Shown here: in pieces, positions 31,786 to 48,455 of the stretch | Layout: each line of letters starts with the position of its first letter | Position numbering within the stretch: position 1 is the first letter of the stretch | Origin: Bacteroidota bacterium | Lineage (GTDB): Bacteria > Bacteroidota > Ignavibacteria > Ignavibacteriales > Ignavibacteriaceae | Direction of reading: 5' to 3' | Assembly: GCA_022564295.1 (NCBI GenBank) | Contig: JADFLR010000014.1 | Coordinates: forward strand, 1-64,000 | DNA length: 64,000 nt | Translations under genes and position numbers: made by a program | The notes under the pieces: generated by a model | The model's database searches: none | What the model saw: the letters and a program-made list of their open reading frames with translations, nothing else | Told to the model about the DNA's origin: nothing

Positions 31786-32940
31786 ATGAAGGATTCCTTT
31801 ACAACGACTCACAAAGTTCTCTATAATGATTCAAGAGATATGAGTGGAATTGAACCCAATACAGTGAACTTAATTATAACATCTCCTCCTTATCCTATGA
31901 TTAAAATGTGGGATGATGTTTTTAACTCAATGAATATTGATATTGGTAATGAGCTAAATATTGGTAAGGGAGAAAGAGCTTTTGAATTGATGCATCAAGA
32001 ATTAGACAGAGTATGGGACGAATGTTTTAGAGTTTTGAAAAATGGTGGTATTATGTGTATAAATGTTGGTGATGCAACAAGAACAATAAAAAACAATTTT
32101 CAGTTATACTCAAACCATTCAAGAATTCTAAGTTATTGTTTGAAAAAAGGTTTTCATAACCTTCCAAATATAATTTGGAGAAAAACAACAAATGCACCTA
32201 ACAAATATATGGGCTCAGGTATGCTTCCTGTTGGAGCATATGTAACATTGGAACATGAGTATATTTTAATATTTAGAAAGGGATTAAAAAGAGAATTTAA
32301 ATCTCAATTAGAAAAAAGTCAAAGAAGAAAGAGCGCTTTCTTTTGGGAAGAGAGAAATCAATGGTTTTCAGATATTTGGTTTAATATGACAGGGGCAAAT
32401 CAGAATTTAAATAATAAAGAATTAAGAGAAAGAAGTGGAGCATTTCCATTTGAATTAGCACATCGTCTAATTAATATGTTTTCTGTTTACGGCGACTCAG
32501 TATTAGACCCCTTTTTAGGCACAGGGACTACTACCATTGCTTCTATTGTTAATGGAAGAAACAGTTATGGTTTTGAAATAGACCACAATTTTCAAACTGT
32601 GATTGAATCTTGGATTATTCATTCTATTAATTTATCAAAAGCAGTACTTAAAAATAGAATAACTCAACATCTAAATTTTATTAACGAAAGGGAAAAAGAA
32701 AAAGAAGTCAAATATTATAATTCAAATTATAGCTTTAAATGTGTCAGTAATCAGGAGAAGGATTTAGTTTTTCATCAATTGTTGAAGATTACTGAATTGG
32801 ATGATAATTCTTTCTCGGCAGTTCTTAAAGAATTATTAGCGGAACAGATGGAAGAAATGCTACATCAAAAAATCAAACATAATATCAAGAATACCCAACA
32901 AAAATTAAAGAATAATAGGAATCAACTAAATCTAATTTAA
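31786..32940 (+). CDS. Type II DNA methyltransferase, SPPY class (likely N4-cytosine)
   Basis: 384 aa. Catalytic motif IV TSPPYPMIKMWDD is near the N-terminus and SAM-binding motif I DPFLGTGTTTIA at ~241, so motif order is IV...I, the beta arrangement. SPPY is most common in N4-cytosine enzymes, but N6-adenine is not excluded. It protects host DNA from the nuclease encoded convergently at 32971-33750. Low GC and strongly A-rich codons compared with neighbouring genes fit horizontal acquisition. Confidence 0.88.
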   Translation: MKDSFTTTHKVLYNDSRDMSGIEPNTVNLIITSPPYPMIKMWDDVFNSMNIDIGNELNIGKGERAFELMHQELDRVWDECFRVLKNGGIMCINVGDATRTIKNNFQLYSNHSRILSYCLKKGFHNLPNIIWRKTTNAPNKYMGSGMLPVGAYVTLEHEYILIFRKGLKREFKSQLEKSQRRKSAFFWEERNQWFSDIWFNMTGANQNLNNKELRERSGAFPFELAHRLINMFSVYGDSVLDPFLGTGTTTIASIVNGRNSYGFEIDHNFQTVIESWIIHSINLSKAVLKNRITQHLNFINEREKEKEVKYYNSNYSFKCVSNQEKDLVFHQLLKITELDDNSFSAVLKELLAEQMEEMLHQKIKHNIKNTQQKLKNNRNQLNLI

Positions 32941-32970
32941 CTAAAATCACAATTTAAATTATTTAAATTA

Positions 32971-33750
32971 TTAATCTAACAACCCTCTAATATTTTTTAT
33001 CTGATTATTGTCTATTATATTTCCTCTCATATCAGCAGTAATATAGTACACAGGGCTTTTAAACACTTTTTTATATCCATCATGTTTTATCTGATTTGCA
33101 GATTGTGCAATTTTAAGATATGGAAAATTGTAAAAATAACTTCTTGGTTTAATTTGAATCGCACATACTAGTTCATCATCTTTTGACAATTCATAATCTA
33201 TTCCATATTTATAATCTGCATCTCCGCCAGATTTTTTAAATGTTAAGTCGGGAAATAATTTTTTTAATTTTTCAATTGTGTTATGTTCTCTAACAATTAC
33301 TCCATTCCAAGTTTCACAAATAACCCTAAATCTAACACATTCTGTTGCTTCTTCTTCAGTGAGATTCAATTTATTTAGATTTCGTTTCTTTAGCTCATCG
33401 AATAAAATTGCACCTTTCTTTTTAAAATCATCCTCTGTTCTTCCAAAATTGTGATTAATGTTTTTTAAAGAATAATTAATTTTATTAAATAGGATTGGGT
33501 TATTCTTCTTATATAACTCATCCGTGACGATGACTCTTTCTGAATCTTTAAGTTTTATTATTTCTTGATTTCTTTTGGCTCCCGAATTATAATAAAAAAT
33601 TTCCCATTCCTCTTTATTATGAAATGGTGATGATACTATTAAAGTTGTTATATATCCAACACTCCAGGGGTCGTTTAATGTTAGTTCATTCCATAATCCA
33701 TTTGTCGAGGCGAATTTTTTCGAATCAAGTGTATTTAAAAATTCAGACAT
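32971..33750 (-). CDS. Type II restriction endonuclease (PD-(D/E)XK-like, possibly MjaI-type)
   Basis: 259 aa, convergent with the methyltransferase gene and separated by 30 bp. KKSGGDADYKYGIDYEL followed by CAIQIKPRSYF gives an Asp...(Q/E)xK active-site arrangement of the PD-(D/E)XK superfamily. The N-terminal NTLDSKKFASTNGLWNEL and DPWSVGYITTL look like the MjaI family (recognises CTAG), from memory and not searched. With the methyltransferase it forms a complete restriction-modification pair. Confidence 0.7.
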   Translation of the reverse strand: MSEFLNTLDSKKFASTNGLWNELTLNDPWSVGYITTLIVSSPFHNKEEWEIFYYNSGAKRNQEIIKLKDSERVIVTDELYKKNNPILFNKINYSLKNINHNFGRTEDDFKKKGAILFDELKKRNLNKLNLTEEEATECVRFRVICETWNGVIVREHNTIEKLKKLFPDLTFKKSGGDADYKYGIDYELSKDDELVCAIQIKPRSYFYNFPYLKIAQSANQIKHDGYKKVFKSPVYYITADMRGNIIDNNQIKNIRGLLD

Positions 33751-33959
33751 ATTTTTGCATAAATAAAATCAGTTAAAATTATTACATACTGTTCTTTCTT
33801 TTCATAGAAGACAATTTGGACTTTTATTTTTTCAGCAAGAAACACCTTTATTTCTATATATGCTGAAGGTTTGATTGAAATTGCAATCTCTCCAATATAT
33901 CCATCAATTCCTCTCGGAAGTATAATTTTTAAAGGAAGCAGGTTAAGATACTTACACAC
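33735..33959 (-). CDS. Uncertain small ORF upstream of the restriction gene
   Basis: 74 aa from a GTG; the frame is open back to a stop at 33978-33980. It overlaps the start of the nuclease gene by 16 bp. IILPRGIDGYIGEIAISIKP and VQIVFYEKKEQYVIILTDFI look protein-like in this AT-rich context, but I recognise no family and no good ribosome-binding site. It may be a fragment left at the island edge or a chance ORF. Confidence 0.25.
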   Translation of the reverse strand: MCKYLNLLPLKIILPRGIDGYIGEIAISIKPSAYIEIKVFLAEKIKVQIVFYEKKEQYVIILTDFIYAKICLNF

Positions 33960-34038
33960 AAAAGGGGGGACTTCGAATTAAATTACTATATCATTTAATT
34001 ATCAATCTGCAAAGCGCAATTACGTATTAAATGAAAGA

Positions 34039-35769
34039 TCATTTAACTATCAGCATTTTTTTTGTTTGGATAAAATTTCCTGCTTTCAATTGATAGAAAT
34101 AAATTCCACTCGTGAGTGCAAGTCTGTGGCTTGCTCCCAAATCGAATTCAATATCATACACACCTGGCGATAACTCTTGATTTACGAGAGTTGCAATTTC
34201 ATTCCCAAGAATGTCATATACCTTTAAACTTACAAATCCAAAATCTGATATCCGAAATTCGATAATTGTAGATGGGTTAAAAGGATTAGGATAGTTCTGT
34301 GAAAGTGAATAATTATATAGTTCATGTATTTCTTCCTCCACAGAAACCGGGTACGTTGTTCCTTCAACAAATACTTGCCGGGCAATAAGCAAAGTGTCTG
34401 TAACAGATCTGAAATTTATTTTATCGACAAAGCTTCCATTTTCAATCGGCTCAAATACTATTGTTGCTTCAACAGAATCGTGTGGAGCAATTATTATTGG
34501 AAGAGTTTCATCTACATAAAAAGAAGAATCCCTTTTAAATACTTCGTTAATAATTACTGGGTAGTTTTTTGCATTATACAGTTTTACATCAATGCTGAAA
34601 GAATTTCCAACAGTTATAACTCCAAAATCGAGGGAATCGTATTGTATTGAAAAAAGATTTGTTTTCCAGGGAAATTTATATGCACGGTATTGGTGAGCGT
34701 GGTTATCATACCTAACTTCATATTCAGTAGAGTCATCAGGGTTTATTTCAGAAACAAATGGATTTTGTATGTCATCCCAGCTAATTAAAATATTCCCGTT
34801 TGATAATTCCTGCAAACCGCCTCTCGTTGGAGAATAGATTGTGCCATTACGTGAATACCTTCTTATAAGTGTTGCTGTAAAATTCTGTTCATCAATATCA
34901 TATTCAACATAACTCGAGTATTGAGGAATAAGAAAATGCCCATTATCAAATAACGCAAGATTGCCGTTTGAAAGCATCCTTGCATCGTGCTGTCTTCCAA
35001 AGCCGCGGTTATCATTAATAAACTGGAACTGATTTCTCTCTCCGCCAAGCCGCCATATTATTTCGCCGGTTTGCCTGTTTATTTTAGTAATCTCATTAAA
35101 GTTTCTTGTAGAGATAATTAAATTACCGTCAGGGTCTATCTCTAATGAATTACAATGCGTCCAGTCAATCGTGTGATTGGTTAGATCAACAGTTTCATCA
35201 ACATCAAGAATATCGTAATGATCAAACGAATGCCATCTCCAGAGTTCATTGTCATCGGCATCCATATGGTGGATTGTATGGGCTATAAGAATTGCAGCAG
35301 TATCTCCTCCGTGAACATACTGACTCATATCAATTGTGATATGATCTCTTCCGAAAACGTAATATGATCCGTCTTCCATCACCTGCAAATCGTGAACATC
35401 CAATGCGAACCCCTGTGGAGTTAAGTACTGTTTATCTCTAATACCCGAGCTATCCATACCATAACTGTAAACTGAATAAATGTTATAAGTTAATTTGCCA
35501 TTTGGTTGTAGTTTAAAATCAAAAACCTGCCCGGTAACCTTTTTATAGAACAAGGGAATTAACTCATTATCCAATATGATTAAATGACCTGACCCGGAAC
35601 TGGAAGGTCCTAAAAAGAGGTGTTCGGGAGATGGATTATTATTAACAGTAACTGTAAGGCTTGGGTAAGTAAAAGTAAAACTTTCGTTTCCATCTTCTCG
35701 TACTGGTTGGGCGAAAACAGATTGAACAGATAAGCTAAAAAACATCAAAAATAGAAAAATCTTTTTCAT
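34039..35769 (-). CDS. T9SS-secreted arylsulfotransferase-fold protein, paralogue 1 (short form)
   Basis: 576 aa. Signal peptide to VFAQ; residues ~35-360 are the ASST propeller, with DLNLG-free blocks such as NRQTGEIIWRLGG, then an ASH/HYDIN-like Ig domain (~370-470) and a T9SS sorting domain. Positions matching ASST catalytic residues are kept: His126 (DVHD), His205/Asn207 (HCN), Arg222 (STR), His261 (RQHD). The known enzyme moves sulfate from one phenol ester to another through a sulfo-His. Its sorting domain differs from the other five and carries an extra GASHRLALTSG segment. Last gene of the tandem array; stop at 34039. Confidence 0.82.
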   Translation of the reverse strand: MKKIFLFLMFFSLSVQSVFAQPVREDGNESFTFTYPSLTVTVNNNPSPEHLFLGPSSSGSGHLIILDNELIPLFYKKVTGQVFDFKLQPNGKLTYNIYSVYSYGMDSSGIRDKQYLTPQGFALDVHDLQVMEDGSYYVFGRDHITIDMSQYVHGGDTAAILIAHTIHHMDADDNELWRWHSFDHYDILDVDETVDLTNHTIDWTHCNSLEIDPDGNLIISTRNFNEITKINRQTGEIIWRLGGERNQFQFINDNRGFGRQHDARMLSNGNLALFDNGHFLIPQYSSYVEYDIDEQNFTATLIRRYSRNGTIYSPTRGGLQELSNGNILISWDDIQNPFVSEINPDDSTEYEVRYDNHAHQYRAYKFPWKTNLFSIQYDSLDFGVITVGNSFSIDVKLYNAKNYPVIINEVFKRDSSFYVDETLPIIIAPHDSVEATIVFEPIENGSFVDKINFRSVTDTLLIARQVFVEGTTYPVSVEEEIHELYNYSLSQNYPNPFNPSTIIEFRISDFGFVSLKVYDILGNEIATLVNQELSPGVYDIEFDLGASHRLALTSGIYFYQLKAGNFIQTKKMLIVK

Positions 35770-35833
35770 TGTTATTATATCTTAAAAATTATTTTAAACA
35801 TAGCAAATTATTAACCTTCGTTACGTTCACATA

Positions 35834-38011
35834 TTATTTTAGAAGTATCATCTTCTTAACAGAATGGAAATAATCAGTTCCATCTGTTGGAATTGCTTCA
35901 ATTGAATAAAAGTAAATTCCTGAAGCGATATTGCCGGCATTCCAACTAACTTCGTAACTACCAGTACTAAGATTTGCATTAATTAAATCAGCAATATTTT
36001 CTCCGATAGAATTATACACTTTTATACTTACTTTGCTTTGAGTTGGAATGGAATACCTGATAGTTGTGCCCGGATTAAATGGATTTGGATAATTTTGCTC
36101 CAATACATAATTGTAAATTATTTCATCTTTTTTCACATCAGAATATATTGTATCCGTCCTGCCGGCTAATATCATAACCTGTGCTATTCTGCTTGTCTCA
36201 GTATCCGATCTTATATGAAGAAAATCTTTAAAATAACCATCTTCGCTGGGAATAAATTTAATATTGAGAGTTACAGCACCAAACGCCGGAAGTGTAAATG
36301 GTACAGGATTTTCTACAACATAGTCTTCATTTACATTATAATACCCGGTAATATCAACAGGATCAGCTGAGTTATTAATTAGATCAACACTTATAGTGGC
36401 TGAGTCACCAACAGGAACGGATTCAAAAAATATGGAATCAGGTTTTGTTACAAATAGATTTGTTTTCCAGGGAAATTTGAAAGCACGGTAATTTATAAAT
36501 GTATCAACTAAAAAAATTTCCAGGGCAACCGAACCTTCTTGTTGGATCTCGCTTATTGCTTCAGCTCCCTGGTTTATCCATCCTCCCCAATCAATTAATG
36601 TATTATTTCCGGAAAGCCTTTGAACATTTCCCTGTGCTGATTTATATATTGGAGGTTCATTAGTATGTAGCCATATTAATTCTGCAGTCTTGTTTGATTC
36701 ATCTAATTTATACTCACGCGCTCTGGAAATTTTTGGGAAATGTAAATTACCATTATCATACAGAGTTACATTACCATTTGGCAATCGTCTTATGTCATGT
36801 TGATGAGAAAAAGTAATTGGATCATTGATAAATTGAAACTGATTGTTTTTTGATTTTAAGCCACCCCAGCGCCAGATGATTTCTCCGGTTTGTCGACTTA
36901 TTTTTGTAATCTCGTCCATATGCCTGCTGGAAATAAGTAAATTTCCATCGAAATCTAATTCAATTGCATTTCCATGTACATAATCAATAGTATGCTGAGT
37001 TAAATCGATATCCTCTGTTGCATCGGTAATTTGATAGTGATCCCAGCTTCTCCATTGAAAGACAACATTTTTATTAAGGTCCAATTCCTGTAAAATTAAT
37101 CCAATTACAATAGCAGATGAATCACCTCCTGCTACAATAGTATCCATTCTAACAGGTTGTGGATCATAAGCCATCAAAAAATAGTGTCCATTTGGTAGAA
37201 TTTGAAATTCATGACTGTCAGTCAAATAGCCATTGCCAGTGGAAAAACTATCAACTACAGAGTAGGATGAATCCATAGTGTAGAAATAACGGGTAAATAT
37301 ATTACCATAGCTCAATAATCCATTTGGTTGAACTTTAAAATCAGTTTGAACATTAGGCATCTTATTATAATAAATTGGTATCGCATTATTATCAATTATA
37401 ACCAGGTATCCAAAACGTGGATATAGCGTAAAGGGGGCAAAAAACAAATATCCATCAGTTGGATTATTATTTACGTTTACTGTGATAGTAGGAAAGTCTA
37501 CAGGCAAACAATTATTTATAGAGTAATTACTTCTTAGAAAGTAAGTATCGAAATTAGTATTTGTTTTAGTATATGGAAAATCCAAAACATCACCTAAAGC
37601 TTTCTCACGTTCATCATTAGATAATGTTTGGCTTATATAAAAATCAAAAGTGATGGGGCTCAACATTTCCCTGCTAGCTGTGTAAATTCCACTGTAAAGT
37701 TTTACGTTAACTTTTTCTCCCGGAGTAAAGTGGATCAATGGAATAAAGATGAGCGTTCGTATATCATCTGAAAGAAAAAATTCTCCGGAGTGCAAACCAC
37801 TTATCGAACCAACAACTTCAATTGATGCTTCTTTTATTGTTGTAGCATCTATAATATCCCCTTGCCTGATAATTATATTATTTTCGGGCATGATTAGCTT
37901 TGAGCCAGGAAGAGGTGAGATAAATTGATACTTTTCGATATTGTAATCTTGAGCTGGACTTAAGCCTGTAAATAATAAAATAAAGAGTAGTAAAAACATT
38001 GTTGTCCTCAA
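35834..38011 (-). CDS. T9SS-secreted arylsulfotransferase-fold protein, paralogue 2 (long form)
   Basis: 725 aa. Signal peptide (GLSPAQ), then an N-terminal Big_5-like Ig domain at ~25-135 (FISPLPGSKLIMPENNIII, GEFFLSDDIRTLIFIP). The ASST propeller follows, with SHEF (His), YVHGNAIE, SSRHMDE and SHQHDIR at the four catalytic-type positions. An ASH-like Ig domain (FFESVPVGDSATISVDLI) and the sorting domain QNYPNPFNPGTTIRYSI...KKMILLK close it. It lies 64 bp upstream of paralogue 1 in transcription direction. Confidence 0.82.
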   Translation of the reverse strand: MRTTMFLLLFILLFTGLSPAQDYNIEKYQFISPLPGSKLIMPENNIIIRQGDIIDATTIKEASIEVVGSISGLHSGEFFLSDDIRTLIFIPLIHFTPGEKVNVKLYSGIYTASREMLSPITFDFYISQTLSNDEREKALGDVLDFPYTKTNTNFDTYFLRSNYSINNCLPVDFPTITVNVNNNPTDGYLFFAPFTLYPRFGYLVIIDNNAIPIYYNKMPNVQTDFKVQPNGLLSYGNIFTRYFYTMDSSYSVVDSFSTGNGYLTDSHEFQILPNGHYFLMAYDPQPVRMDTIVAGGDSSAIVIGLILQELDLNKNVVFQWRSWDHYQITDATEDIDLTQHTIDYVHGNAIELDFDGNLLISSRHMDEITKISRQTGEIIWRWGGLKSKNNQFQFINDPITFSHQHDIRRLPNGNVTLYDNGNLHFPKISRAREYKLDESNKTAELIWLHTNEPPIYKSAQGNVQRLSGNNTLIDWGGWINQGAEAISEIQQEGSVALEIFLVDTFINYRAFKFPWKTNLFVTKPDSIFFESVPVGDSATISVDLINNSADPVDITGYYNVNEDYVVENPVPFTLPAFGAVTLNIKFIPSEDGYFKDFLHIRSDTETSRIAQVMILAGRTDTIYSDVKKDEIIYNYVLEQNYPNPFNPGTTIRYSIPTQSKVSIKVYNSIGENIADLINANLSTGSYEVSWNAGNIASGIYFYSIEAIPTDGTDYFHSVKKMILLK

Positions 38012-38084
38012 ATTATAAAGATTAAATAATTTACAGTTTGTTCCTTAATAAAATTATCCATTCTTAATCTAATAAACCTACCCA

Positions 38085-39851
38085 TTATTTTAGCAATATC
38101 ATCTTCCTTGCAGACCTAAATATTTCTGTTCCATCGGAAGGTATCGCTACTATGGAATAAAAATAAATTCCTGATGCAAAATTCCCGGCGACCCAATTAA
38201 TTTCATAACTACCAGCAGCTTGATTAACATCAACCAATTTTGCAATATTTTCTCCAATAGAATTATACACTTTTATACTTACTTTGCTTTGAGTTGGAAT
38301 GGTATATCTGATAGTTGTACCCGGATTAAATGGATTAGGATAATTCTGCGAAAGATAGAAACAGTCTGGCTTCTTATCATCTTTTTCTGCGGAGGTAAGA
38401 CTTGTTGCCCCCTCAACAAATACCTGCTGAGCCAAAAGCAGCGTATCATTCACATATCTAAAATTAATTTTATCCGTGAAATATTCATTTGAGTAAGGTT
38501 TAAACATGATTACAATTTCAACCGAATCCTGATGAGGTATGATAATCGGCAAACTTTCTTTAACAGAGAAAGAAGAATCCCGGTAGAATATTTCGTTAAT
38601 TGTAACTTCTTCTTCCCGGTAATTATATAATGTTAAATTTGTGGTTGCTGAATCGCCGACATCTACTATACCAAAGTTCACAGAATCACGATTAACTGAG
38701 AAATAATTTGTTTTCCATGGAAAGCGATAAGTACGATACCGGTGACCCCCGGTTGGAAACCTAATTTCATACTCAACCGCATTATTAGAGTTTATTTCTG
38801 TAACTGCTGGGTCATCTCTTTCTCCCCAGCAAATCAAAAAGTTGCCATTTGATAGTTCCTGAACTCCTCCTCTAATACGAGAATAAAAAGTATCACTCTT
38901 TGAATATCTCCTAACAAGAGTAGCAGTAAAGTTCGTTTCATCAAGTTGATACTCGACCAGGCTCGAGTATTCAGGGATAGCACGAACACCGTTATCAAAT
39001 AAAATAATGTTACCATTCAAAATTCTTCTTGCATCATGCTGCCTGGAAAAACCTCTGTTATCGTTTATAAACTGGAATTGATTTCTTTCACCTCCGAACC
39101 GCCAGATAATATCGCCGGTTTGTCTGTCAATCTTTGTTATTTCGTTAAAGTTTCTTGTTGATAGAATTATATTACTATCAGTATCAACTTCAATTGAATT
39201 GCAGTGTGTCCAGTCAATTTTATGCTGAGTTAAATCAACATACTCATCGGCATCAAGAATATCATAATGGTCAAAAGATCGCCACCTCCATATTTCGTTA
39301 TCCGAAGAACTCATATGATGAATATTGTGCGTAATCAAGATTGCATTTGTATCACCACCTTCAACATACTGACTCATATCTACAATAATCGATTCTTTGC
39401 CCAGTACATAATACGACCCATCGGATAAAACCTTTAATTCATGGAAATCGAACAGAAAACCCGGTGGAGTATAAAACCGGTTACTGGGTGTACCGGAGCT
39501 ATCCATACCGTAACTGGAGGTGGGAATGATAATATAGGTTAGCTCTCCATTTGGCTGCCACTTAAAATCAAATATGGTACCATAAATCCTTCTGTAAAAC
39601 ACAGGTATAGTTTGATTATCTACTATTAGAAGATGACCGAAACCTCCGGCTGTGAGACTTAAAAACAGATAATCATCGGATGGATTATTATTAATAACAA
39701 CTTCAATTTCAGGGTAATCTAAAAGTGTAGATTGGTTAGGATATTGTGCAAGCGCTAGATCATTTAAATTAAATGATAAGACACTACCAAGGAAAAATAT
39801 ATAGAATGCTTTAGCTGATCTTGAAATATATAACATTGCTCGCTTCTTCAC
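38085..39851 (-). CDS. T9SS-secreted arylsulfotransferase-fold protein, paralogue 3 (short form)
   Basis: 588 aa. A rather long N-terminus precedes the hydrophobic signal (FYIFFLGSVLSFNL); ATG 39836 is an alternative start. ASST propeller residues are present: FHEL, DWTHCNSIE, STRNFNE, SRQHDAR. Then come an ASH-like domain (FGIVDVGDSATTNLTLYNYR) and a sorting domain nearly identical to that of paralogue 2 from GTTIRYTIP onward, pointing to recent exchange of this end. No Big_5-like domain. Spacing to paralogue 2 is 73 bp. Confidence 0.82.
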   Translation of the reverse strand: MKKRAMLYISRSAKAFYIFFLGSVLSFNLNDLALAQYPNQSTLLDYPEIEVVINNNPSDDYLFLSLTAGGFGHLLIVDNQTIPVFYRRIYGTIFDFKWQPNGELTYIIIPTSSYGMDSSGTPSNRFYTPPGFLFDFHELKVLSDGSYYVLGKESIIVDMSQYVEGGDTNAILITHNIHHMSSSDNEIWRWRSFDHYDILDADEYVDLTQHKIDWTHCNSIEVDTDSNIILSTRNFNEITKIDRQTGDIIWRFGGERNQFQFINDNRGFSRQHDARRILNGNIILFDNGVRAIPEYSSLVEYQLDETNFTATLVRRYSKSDTFYSRIRGGVQELSNGNFLICWGERDDPAVTEINSNNAVEYEIRFPTGGHRYRTYRFPWKTNYFSVNRDSVNFGIVDVGDSATTNLTLYNYREEEVTINEIFYRDSSFSVKESLPIIIPHQDSVEIVIMFKPYSNEYFTDKINFRYVNDTLLLAQQVFVEGATSLTSAEKDDKKPDCFYLSQNYPNPFNPGTTIRYTIPTQSKVSIKVYNSIGENIAKLVDVNQAAGSYEINWVAGNFASGIYFYSIVAIPSDGTEIFRSARKMILLK

Positions 39852-39913
39852 TTATCGATTTATATAATTATATCATCCGGTAATCGCCGGATGGTATAAT
39901 TAAAAAGATTTAT

Positions 39914-41656
39914 TTACTTTAACAATATCATTTTCCTTACCGAGCGAAATATATCTGAACCATCAACCGGTACTGCTTCTATCGAGTAGAAATATATACC
40001 TGAAGCAACATTACCTGCATTCCAGTCTACTTGATAGTTGCCCTCACTCTGCATTAAATCGACCAGCTCAACAACATTTTCCCCAAGCGAGTTAAAGATT
40101 TTTATGGTAACCTGGCTTTGTACCGGAATTGAATATATGATAGTTGTGCCCGGATTAAATGGATTAGGATAATTTTGAAAAAGGGAGAATGCATTAATTG
40201 GATTGTTATTATTATCTTCTGCTGTAACTCTATTAGTTGAACCGAATAAATCAACTTGCTGACCAAGCAGAAGAGTATCATTTACATATCTTATATTTAA
40301 CTGATCTTCAAAATATCCTTCACTGTAAGGTTTGAATTTTACTTCTAATTCTACAGAATCGTTGCGTGTAATATTTATAGGCAGTTTGTTTAAAACTGTA
40401 AACGTTGAGTCTATAAAATAAAATTGATTTATGATTGCAGTATCATTCCCATTGTTTTTTACCCAAATGTTTTTGATTAAGGAATCGCCCACCGATACTG
40501 TCCCAAAGTTTAATGAATCGGTATTTACGGAAAAATAATTTGTTTTCCACGGAAAACGAAATGAACGGTAACGATGACCGCCGTTTGGAAAACTTATTTC
40601 ATAAACTATCTCATTATCAGAATTGATTTCAGTAACTGCCGGCTCATCACTTTCTCCCCAGCTAATAAGATGATTGCCGTTTGGTAAACCCTGCACGCCA
40701 CCTCTTATTCGAGACCAAACAGTTTCATCTCTTGAAAATCTTCTTACTAAGGTTGCAGTAAGTGAATCTTCATCAAGTGCATATTCTACCAGGCTGGAAT
40801 ATTGGGGTTCTAAACGTACTCCGTTATCGAAAAGAATTAAATTACCCGCAGCGTTTCTTTTTACATCATGCTGCCGCGCAAACCTTCTGGAATCATTAAT
40901 AAATTGGAATTGGTTTCGTTCCCCGCCAAATCTCCAGATGATATTTCCAGTTTGCCTGTTTATTTTTGTTACCTCGTTAAAATTTCTTGTTGAAAGCAGA
41001 ATGTTCCCATCATAATCTATTTTAATTGAATTACAATGGGACCAATCAATTACAGATTGAGTTAAAATTACGGCGCTATCTGCATCAAGTATATCGTAGT
41101 GATCGAAAGAGCGCCACCTCCATATTTCATTATTCTGTGCATCCATATGAAGAATATTTTGTGTAATCAAAGTTGCATTAGTTCGTCCGCCCGGAACAAT
41201 GTGGCTTAAATCCACAACAACACGTTCATCACCGAGAACATAGTAAGTGCCGTCTTCCAGAACGGTAAGTTCATGAAAATTAAAATCGATAGAATCGGGT
41301 GTAATGAATTTGTTTACAAATGATCCTGAGCTATCAAGCCCAAAACTTGAATCGGGAAAGATGTTGTATGTTAATTCTCCGTTTTCCTGCCATAAAAAAT
41401 TAAATATTACTCCCTCAACTTTTTTATAAAAAACAGGAGTTGCGTTATTATCAAGTATAAGTAAGTGCCCTGCACCCAAAGCTGTTAATCCCAGGAAAAG
41501 ATAATCATCGGATGGATTGATATTTACGTCTACCACAATTTGGGGATAATCTGGCAGTATGTCCGAAAATGATTGAGCCCGAAATAAATTACCGGGGCAC
41601 AATATCAAAAGGGAGCAAACTTGAAGCAGAAAAAATTTTATTAACAATCTTTGCAT
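39914..41656 (-). CDS. T9SS-secreted arylsulfotransferase-fold protein, paralogue 4 (short form)
   Basis: 580 aa. Signal peptide ends near FRAQS. Propeller with FHEL, DWSHCNSIK, STRNFNE and ARQHDVK at the catalytic-type positions, NRQTGNIIWRFGGERNQFQF as the blade signature, the ASH-like domain FGTVSVGDSLIKNIW, and the sorting domain ending RKMILLK. It is closest in style to paralogue 3, and both share 'NRQTG-type' and ERNQFQFINDxR blocks. Intergenic gap to paralogue 3 is 62 bp, to paralogue 5 35 bp. Confidence 0.82.
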   Translation of the reverse strand: MQRLLIKFFLLQVCSLLILCPGNLFRAQSFSDILPDYPQIVVDVNINPSDDYLFLGLTALGAGHLLILDNNATPVFYKKVEGVIFNFLWQENGELTYNIFPDSSFGLDSSGSFVNKFITPDSIDFNFHELTVLEDGTYYVLGDERVVVDLSHIVPGGRTNATLITQNILHMDAQNNEIWRWRSFDHYDILDADSAVILTQSVIDWSHCNSIKIDYDGNILLSTRNFNEVTKINRQTGNIIWRFGGERNQFQFINDSRRFARQHDVKRNAAGNLILFDNGVRLEPQYSSLVEYALDEDSLTATLVRRFSRDETVWSRIRGGVQGLPNGNHLISWGESDEPAVTEINSDNEIVYEISFPNGGHRYRSFRFPWKTNYFSVNTDSLNFGTVSVGDSLIKNIWVKNNGNDTAIINQFYFIDSTFTVLNKLPINITRNDSVELEVKFKPYSEGYFEDQLNIRYVNDTLLLGQQVDLFGSTNRVTAEDNNNNPINAFSLFQNYPNPFNPGTTIIYSIPVQSQVTIKIFNSLGENVVELVDLMQSEGNYQVDWNAGNVASGIYFYSIEAVPVDGSDIFRSVRKMILLK

Positions 41657-41691
41657 ATTTTAATTCTAAATCTATTACAGCGACCAATAAT

Positions 41692-43893
41692 TTATTTTAA
41701 CAGAATCATTTTACTTACTGATTGGAATATTTCCTTTCCGTTAACAGGTATTGCTCTGATGGAATAGAAATAAATTCCTGAAGCGACATTACCAGCATCC
41801 CAACTAACTTCGTAACTACCTGCACTTTGATTAGAATTAATTAATTCTGCAATATTTTCACCAATAGAATTATAAATTATTAATTTCACCCTACTTTGGA
41901 TCGGCATAGAATATCTTATAGTAGTTGATGGATTAAACGGGTTCGGATAATTTTGTTCTAATACAAATTCGTTAGTTATATATTCTGCGGTAACACTTAA
42001 AACTGTTGTATCAGTTTGTCCAACCAGGATCATCAATTGTGCAATTCTACTGGTGGTATCAGTATCAGACCTTATATGAAGTGTATCCTTATAACAGCCA
42101 TTAGCAATTGGTTTGAATTTAATCTTAATGGACTCTGATCTATAAGGTGAAAGTATAAATGGAACTGTATGTTCTACGGTGTAAGATTCCTCTCTATTAA
42201 AGAAACCTGTGATGTTTATATCTCCTGATGAATTACTAATTAAGTTAAACACAATCGTAGTAGAATCTCCAACAGGGACAGATTCAAAGAATATTAAATC
42301 CGGATCGGTTACGAATAAATTTGTCTTCCAGGGAAACCTGAATGCTTTATAGTTAAGAACAGAATTGGATAGAGAAAGCTCAAAAGCTATTGTGCCATCA
42401 ATCCGAACTTCACTCATGGCTCTAAGATCCGTTAAATTTCGGCCCCATCCAATTACAGTATTATTATTAGGTAATCTTTGAGTTCCTCCCATTCCTTGCG
42501 AAAATGTCTTTGGCACATTATAAAACTCCCATACTAATTCTGCCGTTTTATCAGTTTCATTCAACTTATATTCTAAACTTCTGGAGTATTGTGGCGTAAG
42601 GAGATTGCCATTATCAAATAGAGTTACATTACCGTTCGAAATCCTGCGAATATCATGTTGATGTGAAAATGTTCTAGGATCATTTATAAATTGGAATTCA
42701 TTATTTTTGCTTTTGATACCTCCCCAACGCCAGATGATATTTCCGGTTTGTCTATCTATTTTTGTAATTTCATCTAAATGACGGGATGATAATAATAGAT
42801 TCCCGTCGTTGTCGAGCTCAATTGCATTACAATGAAATGGATCTATTGAATGAGCAAGCAAATTTATACCTTCCGTTGCATCTGTTATCTGAAAGTGATC
42901 CTGAGTCCTCCACTTAAAGATTACATTTTTATCAGTATCTTGTTCTTGAATTATAAATTCCAGAACCTGCGCTGCTGAATCACCACCAGCTACAATTGTG
43001 TCCATTCTCACTGTTCGCCAATAAACTCCTAATAAAAGTGAGTGTCCATTAGGAAATAAATGGATATCGTGGAAATCTGTACCAAAATTTATGCAAGAAA
43101 AACTACCCACTACATTATAAGAAGAGTCCATTGCTAAAAATTTATTCGCGTCATTATTCCAGAATGTTAATAAACCATTATGCTGAACCTGAAAGGGACT
43201 TTTGCGTGATGATGTTTTTAAATAATAAATAGGTACTCCACTGTTATCTAAAATCATTAAGTATCCTACTGCAAAAACATTTTCATCCTTTGGATTTAGA
43301 AAAATATATCCCGGTGCGGGATTATCTGAAACATTAATGGTTATATGAGGGAAATCTTCAGGTAAGTCACTAATTTTAACAGGTTCTTCTGATTTTGATA
43401 AGTCGTTACTTATTTTATAATTTCCGGAGATACCAATATCATTAATTTCTTCTAATAGGAATTGAGAATCGTAATCAACTATTTTCTCAGAAACCTTAAA
43501 TGAAAATTCAATAGGTAACAATTCATCCCCTTTTAATGTTTTAATTCCACCATTATATTCAACAATAACTTCTTCACCCAGGGTAAAGGGAACTGCCGGG
43601 TCAAAGATCAGGGTTTTCAAATCGGTGGAAAGAATAAGTTCACCGTTATGTTTAAAACTCCGTGAGCCAATCACTTCAATCTGATTAAATCTATCAAGGC
43701 TTGACTCATCGAGTATTTCACCCTGGCTTATTATTATATTGTCTTCCGGAAGTAATTGTATGGAACCAGGAATAGGAAATATATATTGATATTTCTCAAG
43801 ATTAGAATTTTGAGGATTAGAAAAATTTGAAAAGAAAATAAAAATCATTGCCAACTTAGCAAGCAAGTGGCGAAAATCTTTAGAATTACTCAA
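41692..43893 (-). CDS. T9SS-secreted arylsulfotransferase-fold protein, paralogue 5 (long form)
   Basis: 733 aa. Signal peptide (IFIFFSNFSNPQ) and Big_5-like domain (~30-130, IFPIPGSIQLLPEDNIIIS) at the N-terminus; propeller with FHDI, FHCNAIE, SSRHLDE and SHQHDIR; ASH-like domain FFESVPVGDSTTIVFNLI; sorting domain QNYPNPFNPSTTIRYSM...SKMILLK. It is closest to paralogue 2 and 6 in layout. It starts 120 bp after paralogue 6 ends, the largest gap in the array, so a second promoter there is possible. Confidence 0.82.
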   Translation of the reverse strand: MSNSKDFRHLLAKLAMIFIFFSNFSNPQNSNLEKYQYIFPIPGSIQLLPEDNIIISQGEILDESSLDRFNQIEVIGSRSFKHNGELILSTDLKTLIFDPAVPFTLGEEVIVEYNGGIKTLKGDELLPIEFSFKVSEKIVDYDSQFLLEEINDIGISGNYKISNDLSKSEEPVKISDLPEDFPHITINVSDNPAPGYIFLNPKDENVFAVGYLMILDNSGVPIYYLKTSSRKSPFQVQHNGLLTFWNNDANKFLAMDSSYNVVGSFSCINFGTDFHDIHLFPNGHSLLLGVYWRTVRMDTIVAGGDSAAQVLEFIIQEQDTDKNVIFKWRTQDHFQITDATEGINLLAHSIDPFHCNAIELDNDGNLLLSSRHLDEITKIDRQTGNIIWRWGGIKSKNNEFQFINDPRTFSHQHDIRRISNGNVTLFDNGNLLTPQYSRSLEYKLNETDKTAELVWEFYNVPKTFSQGMGGTQRLPNNNTVIGWGRNLTDLRAMSEVRIDGTIAFELSLSNSVLNYKAFRFPWKTNLFVTDPDLIFFESVPVGDSTTIVFNLISNSSGDINITGFFNREESYTVEHTVPFILSPYRSESIKIKFKPIANGCYKDTLHIRSDTDTTSRIAQLMILVGQTDTTVLSVTAEYITNEFVLEQNYPNPFNPSTTIRYSMPIQSRVKLIIYNSIGENIAELINSNQSAGSYEVSWDAGNVASGIYFYSIRAIPVNGKEIFQSVSKMILLK

Positions 43894-44013
43894 TACACTC
43901 TCCCAATATTTAAAATAAATCCAGCCGAATTAAGTATAATATTTTAATAATAGGTAATTCATTCTACATTATCAATGCTGATTCTTAAAAGCATTGCCTT
44001 CCCCTTGGCGGAA

Positions 44014-46902
44014 TTAACGAAGCAGTATCATTTTCTTTGTTTCAATAAAACTTCCAACTTGCAGTCTGTAGAAATAGATACCACTTGATAATTCACTTCC
44101 ATCAAATTCAACTTCATAGCTTCCGGCATTTTGGGTTAGATCAATTATCTCAGCAATATTTTCACCGATTGAATTATAAATTGTTAAATTCACCTTACTT
44201 TGGATCGGTATAGAATATCTTATAATTGTTGATGGATTAAAAGGGTTCGGATAATTTTGCTCGAGTCTATAATCGGCAGTGATTTCTTCTATTTGTTCAA
44301 CATTTACGGGAATATAAATTATAGTAAAATTTATTTCACTCATATCTTCAAATGAGCCATCTAATGTAGTAACTTTTACTTTATAATCTGAACCATTCGG
44401 TATACTATCAAGCGCCCACCATTTATATCCACCTGTAATTGAAAACATACTATCTACAATTACACTATAGAAAGCCTCATTTCTGTATAATTCAATCCTA
44501 ACACTATCTAACAAGTTATGATCCCATTTAATTGCCATAGAGGTATCGGTTTTCCAAACCTCACCACCGTTAGGAAAAGTTAAGTCTAAGAAAGATGCAG
44601 AAGAATTAAAACTCCACACACTTGTCCAATCACCCCAGCCCGCCGAATTTTTCGATTTTGCTCTCCAGTAATAATCCTGTTCCTGTAATAATGGAGTTAA
44701 GGTATACGTCACCGTTGTAAGAGTTGAATCATCCACCACTTTATTATTAAAAGCGGCATCAGTAGCAACTTGTAGATTAAATTTATCTGCAAATCCTTGT
44801 GGAGACCATTCAAAATCTAAAGGAAGATTCTGATTTACTATCTTGTTATTCTCAGGTGAAACTAATATTGGAGATACCGGGATAACATTTACATCGGGAT
44901 AAGCAAATATAAATTCACCAAGACTTGGTAATGATGAGATTTTAAGTTCATTACTGGCTGGTAAATAAGTTGTTGCCAATGGAAGAAATATTCCCGAGCC
45001 TATAGTGGTACGGTGGTAAACAGTTGTGTTTTGCGGATCCGTTATCTGTGGTATGTGATTAAAATTAAACCAAATATCAACTTCCAGAGAAGTTATGCCG
45101 GCTGCAGTAGCTGTAATGCGGGTTGGATATACTACAGGTGCCCTTCCATTAAATAAAGGATTTACCGGGGAATACTCATAACGTTTTACGGTTACTGCAT
45201 TGTAGAGGACAGTTTCAAGAGTATTGAATTTAATTTTTGTTCCTGTTGTATCTCCCTCCTCATTAAAGGTGTATGTATTACCTTCTAGAATTTCAAACTT
45301 AGTAACCGAAGCGGTGGGTAAACCGCTCGCCCATGGAAAACGGAAAGCTCTGTAAGATGCCAGTTCAGGAGGGAAAAACATCTCAAAAGCTGTAGAGCCA
45401 TCAGGGTGTACTTCAGTAAGAACAGGACCGCCAAAAGCGCTAACCGTACCCCAGCCAACTAAAGTATTATCATTAGCTAGTCTTTGAACTGAGCCCATTG
45501 CGAATGCATATACATCATCCGGAGTATGCCTGTATTCCCATTCCAAAGTTGCAGTTTTATTAACTTCATCAAGCTTATATTCAACAGCCCTGGAGTATGG
45601 CGGCGTGTGGAAATCGCCGTTATCAAAAAGAGTAATATTTCCGTTATCTATTCTTCTTATGTGATGCGGTTCTGCAAAATAATTTGGTTCATTTTCAGGA
45701 TGTTCATTGATGAAGATGAACTCGTTTTGTTTACCACCAAGTCTCCAGATAATTTCACCTGTCTGCCTGCTTATTTTAGTAACCTCTGAAAGGTGCCTGC
45801 CGATGAATAACAAGTTCCCATCGTCATCCAAATCAAGAGCATTTAAATGAATGTAATCGATTTGTGATTCAAATAGATCATCGTATGTATCGGTAATAGG
45901 GATGTAATCCCAGCTTCTCCACTGGAATACAACATTTTTATCTGCATCCAGCTCCTGTATAATTCCGCCGATCACAATTGCATTCGGATCACCTCCTGGA
46001 ATTACTTCACTCATATCAAATGGCTGTGGATCATATATCATTAATAAATAGTGTCCGTTAGGCATAATCAAAAATTCATGCAAATCAGCTTGATAACCAT
46101 TACCCGCTTGAACCGAATCGATCACTGTTAATGATGTATCCATAATTTTGAACTGCCCGAAACTATAGCCCGGGAGAAATTGAAATACTTCGGAGTAACT
46201 TAGTAAACCGTTTTGTTGAACTTTAAAATCAAATCCGGCTATTGGAGACATACGTTTGTATTTTATTGGATTACCTTCATTATCGAGTATCATTAAAAAG
46301 AAGCCATCAGTGTTGTTCTCTCCAAATCTTACATTTGATACAAAGATATTACCGGGTGCAGGATTATCTACCGTACCAATTGTAATTTCAGGAAAATCCT
46401 CCGGAATTGTATCAAGTACTGAAACATTAGTTGGAACCTGAGGCGAATATAAGTCCTCCATAGTAATTCCTATGTCAAGTCTCTCAATAGGATCCATTCT
46501 TATTAGTTCTTCTAAAGGAGTGATAGAAAAGCTGTATGATATAGCATTAATTGATGTGCCTGTAATAGTTTTTATACCTGAATTTAATGCAACTGTAACT
46601 GTTTCGCCAGGTGCAAACAGTTCATCAGGTATAAATAAAATAGTTTTTCCATCATCCGATAATATAATTTTCCCACTATGAATACCACTTTGTAAACCGG
46701 TTACTTTTATCACGTTATCTTTAAGTAAAGTTGATTGATCTATAAAATTTTTATGACTAAAAATAATATTTGTTTGCCGCGAATGCAGTTTTGAATCCGG
46801 GAGCGGTGATATATATTGAAATGATGATTGAACCTGGGCTATTATGTAAACCGGGATTAAAAGACTTAAAATGAGTACAGATGTCAGTTTAGAAAGTTTC
46901 AT
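44014..46902 (-). CDS. T9SS-secreted arylsulfotransferase-fold protein, paralogue 6 (longest form)
   Basis: 962 aa from ATG 46902, chosen because AGGAGGG precedes it; the frame extends 21 bp further upstream. Signal peptide, Big_5-like domain (~20-120), ASST propeller (~170-500) with LHEF, YIHLNALD, IGRHLSE and AEPHHIR, so the last His motif is PHH rather than QHD. It then has an unrecognised beta domain and two fibronectin-like segments (FNLQVATDAAFNNKV, FPNGGEVWKTDTSMAIKWD) in place of the ASH domain, and a T9SS sorting domain. First gene of the array in transcription order. Confidence 0.8.
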   Translation of the reverse strand: MKLSKLTSVLILSLLIPVYIIAQVQSSFQYISPLPDSKLHSRQTNIIFSHKNFIDQSTLLKDNVIKVTGLQSGIHSGKIILSDDGKTILFIPDELFAPGETVTVALNSGIKTITGTSINAISYSFSITPLEELIRMDPIERLDIGITMEDLYSPQVPTNVSVLDTIPEDFPEITIGTVDNPAPGNIFVSNVRFGENNTDGFFLMILDNEGNPIKYKRMSPIAGFDFKVQQNGLLSYSEVFQFLPGYSFGQFKIMDTSLTVIDSVQAGNGYQADLHEFLIMPNGHYLLMIYDPQPFDMSEVIPGGDPNAIVIGGIIQELDADKNVVFQWRSWDYIPITDTYDDLFESQIDYIHLNALDLDDDGNLLFIGRHLSEVTKISRQTGEIIWRLGGKQNEFIFINEHPENEPNYFAEPHHIRRIDNGNITLFDNGDFHTPPYSRAVEYKLDEVNKTATLEWEYRHTPDDVYAFAMGSVQRLANDNTLVGWGTVSAFGGPVLTEVHPDGSTAFEMFFPPELASYRAFRFPWASGLPTASVTKFEILEGNTYTFNEEGDTTGTKIKFNTLETVLYNAVTVKRYEYSPVNPLFNGRAPVVYPTRITATAAGITSLEVDIWFNFNHIPQITDPQNTTVYHRTTIGSGIFLPLATTYLPASNELKISSLPSLGEFIFAYPDVNVIPVSPILVSPENNKIVNQNLPLDFEWSPQGFADKFNLQVATDAAFNNKVVDDSTLTTVTYTLTPLLQEQDYYWRAKSKNSAGWGDWTSVWSFNSSASFLDLTFPNGGEVWKTDTSMAIKWDHNLLDSVRIELYRNEAFYSVIVDSMFSITGGYKWWALDSIPNGSDYKVKVTTLDGSFEDMSEINFTIIYIPVNVEQIEEITADYRLEQNYPNPFNPSTIIRYSIPIQSKVNLTIYNSIGENIAEIIDLTQNAGSYEVEFDGSELSSGIYFYRLQVGSFIETKKMILLR

Positions 46903-46923
46903 TTGTCCCTCCTGAATTTTCAA

Positions 46924-47599
46924 AAATATAGTATCTCACAAAAAAAATAATTTCTTTATGTTTTTATCAATAATAATAATCAGATAATTGAGTCAGTATT
47001 TTATTTTATCAGCTATTGATATTTGTTCCATAAGACAATAAAAATTTATTTAACAAATTATAAAATCCTCCATTAACATATATATATTTAATTAATGTTT
47101 AAAGTCATAAGCCAATTACTCATTGTATTGTGAAAAAACAATAATACACCTGTTTAAATAAACCCATTAATAAATGAGATGACAAATAAACTTATTCTAT
47201 AAAAACCCATCTTTTTCTTTTTCTTATTGTTTCCTTTCTACATTTACAGTAGAAACACACTCGAATAAATAGGAAAATATTAAATGCATTTCATAAAAGA
47301 AACCCAATTAAGGCTAATAACTTGGTTTCCACAAAGAAATTATTGCTTTTGAAGTAAAAAATTTGGATACTCACAATCCGCATAATGAAATGGGTGCTTA
47401 CTGTTAGCACCCATTTTTTGTAAATATTTACAAATGGGACAATTTTTCGAGTAATTATTACCGACAACAAATTATTGTAAAATAAATTTGCGACAAAATA
47501 TACTTTTAATGAGATACTAGGCGACAAATCTGGTGGCATTAAACTTGAAAATTATCAGACACAGTCAAATAATCAGTTAAAAAAGGAGTAAATACTATT
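46924..47599. other. Gene-free leader upstream of the array and the small membrane protein
   Basis: No credible gene. It contains a strong hairpin at 47388-47419 (listed separately) behind a plus-strand stretch encoding GFHKEIIAFEVKNLDTHNPH and a few more residues before a stop, with a stop just upstream and no start; it may be a decayed gene end. The rest is A/T-rich and includes the likely promoter of paralogue 6 (minus strand) near 46930-47050. Confidence 0.4.
47388..47419 (+). terminator. Strong Rho-independent terminator without an obvious gene
   Basis: Stem AAATGGGTGCT (47388-47398) and AGCACCCATTT (47406-47416), 7-base loop, T-run to 47419. It would end a transcript coming from ~47200-47385, where no complete ORF is seen; a small RNA or a dead gene is possible. 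Confidence 0.7.
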
Positions 47600-47713
47600 A
47601 TGGGAATGACAGAACTTTTCGTTATCGGTTTTCTCGCAATGCTTGGTTTCATGGCATATAACAACTCAAGAAAGGTCTCCAAAGAACTTAAAAAGATGAG
47701 TGCTGGAAAATAA
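47600..47713 (+). CDS. Small single-pass membrane protein (37 aa)
   Basis: ATG 47600 behind AAAAGGAG, stop at 47711-47713. Sequence is MGMTELFVIGFLAMLGFMAY plus a Lys/Arg-rich tail ending KKMSAGK, so a single TM helix near the N-terminus with a basic cytoplasmic tail. It has a good ribosome-binding site and its own terminator (47735-47769), which makes it a likely real gene. Function unknown; such small TM proteins often modulate larger membrane complexes. Confidence 0.55.
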   Translation: MGMTELFVIGFLAMLGFMAYNNSRKVSKELKKMSAGK

Positions 47714-47734
47714 TTTTAGAATTGGGGGAAAGAG

Positions 47735-47769
47735 AAAAGACCGGTTTTAATATTAAGTCGGTCTTTTTT
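47735..47769 (+). terminator. Terminator between the small membrane protein and rpiA
   Basis: 9-bp stem AAAAGACCG (47735-47743) with CGGTCTTTT (47759-47767), loop of 15, T-run to 47769. On the plus strand it follows the small gene; on the minus strand an A-run at the 5' side means it can also serve the end of rpiA. Confidence 0.8.
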
Positions 47770-48455
47770 CAAGTTTTTAAAATTATTTTACATTCATCAT
47801 CTGCACTTATTATCAACACATCACAAACTTCTAAAAATAATCCTGTATCTACTACTCCGGGAATCAGCAATAATTTATTATTAAGTTCAGCAGGGTTTTT
47901 AATTTTATTTAAATGAAGATCTATAATGTAATGATTTCCATCAGTCACATAATTCTTTCCAGCAGCAGATCTGAATTCGGGTTTATATCCTAACAAAAAT
48001 AATTTATTTAAAGTTTGATTAATACCGAATGGAACCACTTCGACCGGCAAGGGAAATCTTCCTAGCAGTTCAACATGTTTAGTTGAATCAACCATCCATA
48101 TATTTTTTTTAGATGAAGATGCAACTATTTTTTCATTTAATAAGGCACCTCCTCCGCCTTTAATTCCATTCAGGTTTGGATCAACTTCATCCGCACCGTC
48201 TATTGTTATATCAATTTCTTCAACGTCATTAAAATTTAAAACGGTTATTCCAAGAGATTCTGCAAAGTTACTCGTAGCGTTTGATGTCGAAACGGTTTTT
48301 ACGTCCAATCCGTTCTTTATTTTTTTAGCTAAGCCCTCAATCATAAATTTTACAGTAGAGCCAGTACCAAGTCCGACCAACATTCCACTTTCAATAAACT
48401 CAACAGCTTTTTCTGCAGCAGCTTTCTTTTGCTTAATTAAATCTGATTTTGTCAT
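47769..48455 (-). CDS. rpiA: Ribose-5-phosphate isomerase A
   Basis: 228 aa from ATG 48455 (MTKSDLIKQKKAAAEKAVEF); a TTG at 48470 would add five residues. Family blocks VGLGTGSTVKFMIEGLA, ITIDGADEVDPNLNGIKGGGGALLNEKIVA and the KGGGG loop with catalytic Asp and Glu are present. It interconverts ribose-5-phosphate and ribulose-5-phosphate in the pentose-phosphate pathway. It is divergently placed from nnrE and not in an obvious operon. Confidence 0.96.
   Translation of the reverse strand: MTKSDLIKQKKAAAEKAVEFIESGMLVGLGTGSTVKFMIEGLAKKIKNGLDVKTVSTSNATSNFAESLGITVLNFNDVEEIDITIDGADEVDPNLNGIKGGGGALLNEKIVASSSKKNIWMVDSTKHVELLGRFPLPVEVVPFGINQTLNKLFLLGYKPEFRSAAGKNYVTDGNHYIIDLHLNKIKNPAELNNKLLLIPGVVDTGLFLEVCDVLIISADDECKIILKT

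Follow-up and report, generated by a model that had tools for sequence, protein, structure and literature searches.

The window analysed here is a stretch of 64,000 nucleotides (nt) from a Bacteroidota bacterium of the family Ignavibacteriaceae (contig JADFLR010000014.1, positions 1 to 64,000). Between positions 34039 and 46923 it carries six minus-strand open reading frames (ORFs), each of which joins a propeller of the arylsulfate sulfotransferase (ASST) family to a type IX secretion system (T9SS) tail. On the combined evidence of sequence comparison, structure models and analogy with a characterised pathway, we consider it probable that these genes encode cell-surface sulfuryl transferases of the type of the caprazamycin enzyme Cpz4, independent of 3'-phosphoadenosine 5'-phosphosulfate (PAPS), and that several relatives carry a module for making the sulfate donor. 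The genes, numbered from the lowest coordinate upwards, are listed below with lengths in amino acids (aa) and with immunoglobulin abbreviated to Ig.

Paralogue 6, 44014..46923, minus strand: 969 aa from a TTG start or 962 aa from an inner Met (46902), first transcribed; Big_5-like N-terminus, ASST propeller (DNA 45331-46401), weak fibronectin type III (fn3)-like and Ig-like matches, T9SS tail; last catalytic block P-H-H.
Paralogue 5, 41692..43893, minus strand: 733 aa; N-terminal domain as in paralogue 6, ASST propeller (DNA 42328-43359), ASH-like domain, T9SS tail.
Paralogue 4, 39914..41656, minus strand: 580 aa, short form; ASST propeller (DNA 40547-41554), ASH/HYDIN-like Ig domain, T9SS tail.
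Paralogue 3, 38085..39851, minus strand: 588 aa, short form; ASST propeller (DNA 38715-39722), ASH/HYDIN-like Ig domain, T9SS tail.
Paralogue 2, 35834..38011, minus strand: 725 aa; N-terminal domain as in paralogue 6, ASST propeller (DNA 36467-37501), ASH domain, T9SS tail.
Paralogue 1, 34039..35769, minus strand: 576 aa, short form; ASST propeller (DNA 34666-35673), ASH-like domain, T9SS tail; catalytic pentad His126, His205, Asn207, Arg222 and His261, the reference numbering for all residue counts.

A preceding sequence-only reading of this DNA had described six adjacent minus-strand genes of 576-962 aa, and the ORFs confirm them, with paralogue 6 reaching 969 aa from its TTG start. The gaps between the ORFs measure 64, 73, 62, 35 and 120 nt, a spacing compatible with a single operon that would be read from paralogue 6 to paralogue 1. 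A promoter and terminator scan of positions 33700-47800 gave the same counts as shuffled sequence (67 vs 68.7; 8 vs 7.4). The window's genome (G000) has ten PF05935 matches: the six in the window, one on contig C5, one on C10 and two on C8.

All six proteins score above the Pfam cut-offs for both arylsulfotransferase families, PF05935 and PF14269. They also exceed the cut-offs of Por_Secre_tail (Pfam) and TIGR04183 (NCBIfam), which bears out the T9SS sorting domain ascribed to each of them from the letters alone. Their N-termini are hydrophobic as judged by eye, and the same genome encodes the T9SS pore, represented by a SprA_N gene (2.8e-41 at G000:C31), the one component looked for. Among 162 complete ORFs of relatives, at least 125 have a T9SS tail by our own model; two of the failing ORFs have weak Por_Secre_tail matches below the cut-off. 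The accessory domains had been described as a Big_5-like N-terminus in three proteins, an ASH-like domain in five and a fibronectin-like domain in one. Paralogues 2, 5 and 6 do have the same N-terminal sequence, although Big_5 passes the Pfam cut-off in paralogue 6 only. The ASH/HYDIN-like domain of paralogues 1-5 is above the cut-off in 2 (PF15780), 3 and 4 (PF22544) but below it in 1 and 5, and the fn3 match in paralogue 6 is likewise below cut-off.

The evidence on fold covers paralogues 1 and 6, whose AlphaFold models have pLDDT (predicted local distance difference test) scores of 91.3 and 86.5. In both cases the best structural match is Cpz4, with Z 42.7 and a root-mean-square deviation (rmsd) of 4.5 over 362 residues for paralogue 1, and Z 46.2, rmsd 2.0 over 346 residues and 32% identity for paralogue 6. 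The E. coli ASST comes second (Z 33.6 and Z 31.9, respectively), and other propellers trail at Z 21.7 for both models. A profile of the six array proteins matches Cpz4 at 6e-53 and the E. coli enzyme at 1.2e-10. The nearest characterised relative is Cpz4, the ASST of caprazamycin, and not the E. coli enzyme. The likeness to the latter that had been proposed from sequence was right in kind, in fold and in aligned residues, and the structural comparison suggested at the time, run on these two paralogues, confirmed the ASST fold; Cpz4 is simply nearer.

What we say of active-site geometry draws on this fold match together with alignment. The profile alignment places His356, Asn358, Arg374 and His436 of the E. 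coli enzyme on conserved residues, with His252 in a weak stretch, and Cpz4 aligns with an identical set (His, His, Asn, Arg and His). The pentad itself is identical in all six array proteins. As 82 of the 339 domain columns are identical throughout the six, the probability that five named columns would all be so by chance is about 0.0008 (this and the chance figure below treat alignment columns as independent). The four sulfuryl-transfer blocks reported earlier in every copy hold at the level of the pentad, with two small corrections: paralogue 4 has N-F-H-E as its block 1, and in paralogue 6 the last of the four is the P-H-H given above. The E. coli ASST has a disulfide; paralogue 6 lacks any cysteine and therefore has no disulfide of that kind.

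The same residues are strongly conserved in relatives. Among 159 of them, all less than 90% identical to one another, His261 is present in 158/158, His126 in 157/159, His205 in 156/159, Asn207 in 157/159 and Arg222 in 147/159, and all five columns are in the top 30 of 337 by conservation (p about 4e-6). Part of this set was gathered with two peptide patterns that exclude the pentad residues. In the 61 of the 159 that were gathered without any pattern (the window's six included) the counts are His261 61, His126 60, His205 60, Asn207 59 and Arg222 59. A wider set of 184 rows, which holds a few double entries from overlapping loci, has 27 rows that deviate at one or more pentad positions, mostly at Arg. 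Residue counts exclude rows shorter than 230 columns, among them one of the C8 copies of the window's genome (L126:8553-10280) and the ASST-like genes of loci L175 and L176; the second C8 copy has no match to our ASST profile. The sequence-only reading had named freely varying His and Arg positions in relatives as the finding that would tell against it; His and Asn do not vary freely, and Arg varies in a minority.

These counts bear on a quite different explanation, in which the propellers would be non-catalytic surface proteins of ASST descent that serve in binding or adhesion. T9SS cargo often has propellers and Ig-like domains, and some relatives of the array lack catalytic residues. However, the sulfated His is kept in every one of the 158 relatives scored, the five residues stand near the top of the conservation ranking, deviating rows are few, and several relatives link these genes to PAPS chemistry, as described below; we regard a purely non-catalytic array as very unlikely. 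As separate observations, three array members elsewhere (L157:5173-7596, L159:4956-7817 and L104:3586-6045) are without catalytic residues, the sulfated His included, and are possible non-catalytic copies. The C8 copy at L126:8553-10280 is a distant, T9SS-tailed ASST (PF05935 1.1e-21) with His at the Arg position.

The linkage to PAPS chemistry was found in relatives. In three genomes of family f21 (G323, G225 and G214) the array is interrupted by genes for a PAPS-type sulfotransferase, a β-ketoacyl-acyl carrier protein synthase III (KAS III) and an adenosine 5'-phosphosulfate (APS) kinase; the first two were assigned by Pfam in G225 and by our own models in the others, and the kinase by NCBIfam in two genomes and by our own model in the third. 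Searching for this linked type of sulfotransferase gave 4 strong matches in 391 genomes of the class (7 at E 1e-3) and 6 strong matches, one cut by a contig end, in 40 genomes selected for ASST genes (11 at E 1e-3); a 395-genome sample of the phylum had none better than 1e-9 (13 at E 1e-3). The 40 selected genomes carry 41 of the 79 fetched loci, and some of them are also Ignavibacteria. In 10/10 strong-match genomes the sulfotransferase shares one locus with an ASST gene, at distances from directly adjacent up to about 6.5 kb (loci L127/L157, L128, L129/L159, L154, L071, L082, L173, L174, L175 and L176). The ten are not independent, since three belong to the same genus, three to KSB1 and two are of Marinimicrobia type, and the ASST genes of L175 and L176 are distant (PF05935 1e-29 and 8e-24).

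Further genes complete the module to varying degrees. A ketosynthase accompanies the pair in nine of the ten loci (at least 396 bits with our own model), L176 having none within its 14 kb, and an APS kinase is present in four. In L154 the genes for a CysD and a CysN-CysC protein (Pfam PAPS_reduct, GTP_EFTU and APS_kinase) separate the sulfotransferase from the ASST. MMPL and LolA_like genes occur in L082, L175 and L176. In the PDB the L128 ketosynthase matches 4v2p (6e-57) and CorB (2e-53) best, with the top FabH at 4e-43, and a profile of four linked ketosynthases again puts 4v2p and CorB ahead of the FabH entries. As a control, the FabH of the window's own genome matches FabH entries best, with neither MxnB nor CorB at 1e-40. 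Entry 4v2p is MxnB (PMC5724707). MxnB and CorB make alpha-pyrones by joining two beta-ketoacyl chains (PMC4578411, PMC4901931, PMC5724707). Judged from gene content, the linkage speaks for sulfuryl transfer as the reaction that the ASST family catalyses, and we hold with moderate confidence that in the linked genomes the donor is made by the cell. Apart from the ten loci, a distant ketosynthase and sulfotransferase pair lies at L178:4484-6637, preceded by a weak AMP-binding match and followed by an MMPL gene; the best PDB matches of its ketosynthase are again CorB and 4v2p.

Several observations weigh against the reading of the array as a set of competent Cpz4-type enzymes with a cell-made donor in relatives. 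Six of the ten linked genomes come from the set preselected for ASST genes. In eight of the ten linked loci (L071, L082, L128, L129, L154, L157, L173 and L174) one ASST copy has the Arg replaced by Leu, Val or Ala; this copy flanks the ketosynthase in six (L157, L128, L129, L071, L082 and L173) and is the sole ASST in the fetched stretch of L082, L154 and L174. Among ten ASST proteins scanned from the linked loci, six have a T9SS tail above the Pfam cut-off and three below it, with that of L174 unmatched. The sulfated His is lost in three of the 184 rows and gapped in one more. In the window copies, the position of E. coli Thr501 is Arg, Gln or Met. Finally, the module is rare, with 4 strong hits against 185 genomes with ASST-like genes in the 391 of the class, and the window's own genome appears to be without it: G000 gave no match to the linked-type sulfotransferase at E 1e-3 (5 of 6 candidates scored), and its one KAS III match is the housekeeping FabH of a plsX-fabH-fabD operon rather than a pyrone-type ketosynthase, type III polyketide synthases (PKS) not having been searched for.

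Some of these points have a context. Cpz4, a working ASST, has Gln at the Thr501 position by alignment, so that Thr501 is not a family-wide requirement. The Arg is kept in Cpz4, in the other copies of L071 and L173 and in the f21 arrays except for the head-end copies; the Arg-lacking copies fall in two clades of the tree and may have a single origin. The rarity of the module among ASST-bearing genomes means that most arrays must use other donors.

The last point is also what favours a scavenging role, in which the array would detoxify or salvage environmental aryl sulfates by shuttling sulfate between external phenolics, with no dedicated donor made by the cell: neither the window's genome nor most genomes with ASST-like genes have the module. 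The E. coli ASST, moreover, transfers sulfate from one small phenol to another, and for most ASSTs the natural acceptor is given as unknown (PMC13426309). On the other hand, the ten genomes in which an ASST lies near a PAPS-type sulfotransferase suggest that the cell makes the donor itself there. A scan of ten genes flanking the array (one without a match) recognised none for the uptake or degradation of aromatics and none related to sulfation; those flanking genes include a DNA methylase and a ribose-5-phosphate isomerase. We see scavenging as a minority possibility, if a serious one.

Sulfate metabolism is nevertheless encoded elsewhere in G000. ATP sulfurylase and APS kinases are present at C33 and C19, and a Sulfotransfer_3 (PF13469) gene at C33, none of them linked to the array; the sulfurylase and kinases should give the window's genome the capacity for PAPS synthesis. 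These genes would suit an array that sulfates the organism's own exported glycans, whose precursors would first be sulfated by intracellular PAPS enzymes. Flippase and sugar genes, identified by eye, lie nearby, and Cpz4 sulfates a sugar hydroxyl (PMC13426309); yet the ten flanking genes scanned around the array hold no polysaccharide locus, and we rate this role as rather unlikely. Two of the sulfate genes are unusual in their own right. At L156:10573-12810 (contig C19) a 746-aa protein fuses a pyruvate kinase barrel, PUA_2 and ATP-sulfurylase domains; it adjoins an APS kinase, with a gene of the inositol-phosphatase family (CysQ-like) slightly further off. At L155:10267-11007 (contig C33) an APS kinase has an N-terminal DUF2061 membrane domain, beside a plain APS kinase and ATP sulfurylase.

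Tandem ASST arrays are common in the group. A PF05935 match occurs in 185 of the 391 class genomes, many with several; as at most four candidates were scored per genome, these copy numbers are lower bounds. Tandem ASST genes are present in 19 of the 52 relatives' loci that measure 10 kb or more (two genes in 14 loci, three in 2, four in 2 and five in 1), six ASST genes stand in a row in G323 (L127), and interrupted clusters of 5-8 copies occur in three f21 genomes. Six copies are thus at the upper end of the range seen and not unique; a survey of array size had been proposed alongside the remark that no described system of six such secreted copies was known.

The array is also of mixed ancestry. 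In the tree, paralogues 1, 3 and 4 group together with five near-relative rows (support 100), paralogues 2 and 5 fall with the C5 and C10 copies of the window's genome (99), and paralogue 6 pairs with a genus relative (95) as a third lineage. The tree is a quick build with many open forks, and it drops rows more than 72% identical to a kept row, except those of the window and linked loci, so close orthologues are absent from it. In a locus of the same genus (L042), rpiA, YjeF_N and PAP2 genes lie on the same flank of the array as in the window, with no gene related to sulfation in this common flank. The rpiA-flanked site of L042 holds two ASST genes; the first is 90% identical to paralogue 6 over the domain and the second, of the short-form lineage, 61-66% identical to paralogues 1, 3 and 4. 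Locus L043 has one paralogue-6-type gene followed by three genes of the short-form lineage, the first 77% identical to paralogue 4. Copy number at the site therefore changes within the genus, with the head gene kept in L042 and the window. Expansion by duplication, as first proposed, agrees with this variation in copy number, but three lineages side by side do not fit the expansion of a single gene.

A clustering of neighbouring genes took in 998 ORFs from the window and 85 loci. Its largest cluster, drawn from 18 loci, was discarded as antisense ORFs over ASST genes, a judgement based on the coordinates of one member. The clusters that recur belong either to the donor module or to a separate single-copy ASST locus with LemA and M48 peptidase genes. 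In that separate locus (L124, L050, L054, L055 and L056), which includes the C5 copy of the window's genome, LemA, M48 peptidase and DUF3078 recur. Another ASST domain lies inside a single open frame of 3831 aa, cut at the end of its stretch (L094:6489-17981).

Taken together, the six genes most likely encode surface-displayed, catalytically competent Cpz4-type sulfotransferases, as argued from their sequences and two models. The explanation starts from observed features, namely the genes, tails, fold, residue conservation and the linkage in relatives. The cell-surface array of sulfotransfer enzymes first proposed for this DNA stands on the tails, the ASST fold and the residues, while its nearest relative, its uniqueness and its origin from a single gene have had to be corrected. 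The reaction, the nature of the donor and donor export are what we infer, as follows. Each array protein would probably be exported by Sec and then by the T9SS. In a ping-pong cycle, the conserved His (paralogue 1 His261) would receive a sulfuryl group from an organic sulfate ester and hand it on to a hydroxyl of an acceptor, either at the surface or in the medium; the differing Ig-like accessory domains and propeller lineages would determine differing donors or acceptors. In several relatives, the ketosynthase would most likely make a hydroxy-pyrone-like lipid in the cell, the PAPS sulfotransferase would sulfate it with PAPS from the APS kinase, and MMPL/LolA-like export could take the sulfated donor outward. 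Overall, this would be the two-step sulfation logic of caprazamycin relocated to the cell surface.

A bolder extension would be a widespread outer-surface relay found in several phyla, in which a cytosolic ketosynthase and PAPS sulfotransferase make a sulfated pyrone lipid, export of MMPL/LolA type brings it to the outer membrane, and T9SS-tailed Cpz4-type arrays there use it to sulfate surface polymers, the window's array forming the acceptor end with an unrecognised donor; we put this forward as speculative and on balance unlikely. What bacterial ASSTs act on in nature, and their physiological roles, are described as poorly understood (PMC13426309). Clusters that combine a PAPS sulfotransferase, a pyrone-type ketosynthase and Cpz4-type transferases, in some cases also an APS kinase, make the question of the donor directly testable, and they suggest that bacteria can sulfate extracellular targets, where PAPS is not expected. 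Arrays of differing lineages and accessory domains would, in addition, be a source of new sulfation catalysts.

Two features of the window lie apart from the array. At 31786-33750 an N6/N4 DNA methylase gene has as its neighbour a convergent gene of 259 aa that lacks any Pfam match, and the two may form a restriction-modification pair. At 52004-52930 a 2Fe-2S ferredoxin domain is followed by an adenylate/guanylate cyclase domain in one protein.

A literature search found no paper joining arylsulfotransferases with Ignavibacteria or with type IX secretion, the query for arylsulfate sulfotransferase and T9SS matching a thiol oxidoreductase paper only. Nor did it meet the linkage of ASST, PAPS sulfotransferase and pyrone-type ketosynthase seen here in several phyla, a single query having combined these terms and subscription journals being mostly outside its reach. 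It likewise met no report of the Cpz4 structure. PMC7081687 deals with the PAPS enzyme of a macrolactone.

Of the known systems, the E. coli CFT073 enzyme AssT (PDB 3elq, 3ets and 3ett) resembles the array in its six-bladed propeller (PMC13426309) and in the aligned His356, Asn358, Arg374 and sulfated His436. It differs in that the array proteins lack Thr501 and have a T9SS tail, and in that paralogue 6 is cysteine-free. MxnB and CorB are the top PDB matches of the linked ketosynthases; both are placed inside the FabH clade (PMC4578411), so a pyrone product of the linked ketosynthases is a prediction only. When caprazamycin is made, the PAPS enzyme Cpz8 first sulfates a triketide pyrone, which is then the donor for Cpz4 (PMC6731281, PMC4257720). 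The ten linked relatives recall this two-step sulfation: each has a PAPS-type sulfotransferase and an ASST within a single locus, and nine have a pyrone-type ketosynthase there as well. The ketosynthase of the relatives is an MxnB/CorB-like KAS III, whereas the caprazamycin pathway uses the type III PKS Cpz6. In the relatives, moreover, the ASSTs are mostly T9SS-tailed and often in arrays, some loci add an APS kinase or MMPL/LolA-like genes, and one ASST copy is often without the Arg; the window's genome differs again in being without the module. Closest of all is Cpz4 itself (PDB 9kf4 and 9kf6), which has the same propeller fold over the whole ASST domain and the same pentad by alignment; it is a Streptomyces enzyme of an antibiotic pathway, whereas the array proteins are T9SS-tailed, multi-domain and encoded in tandem.

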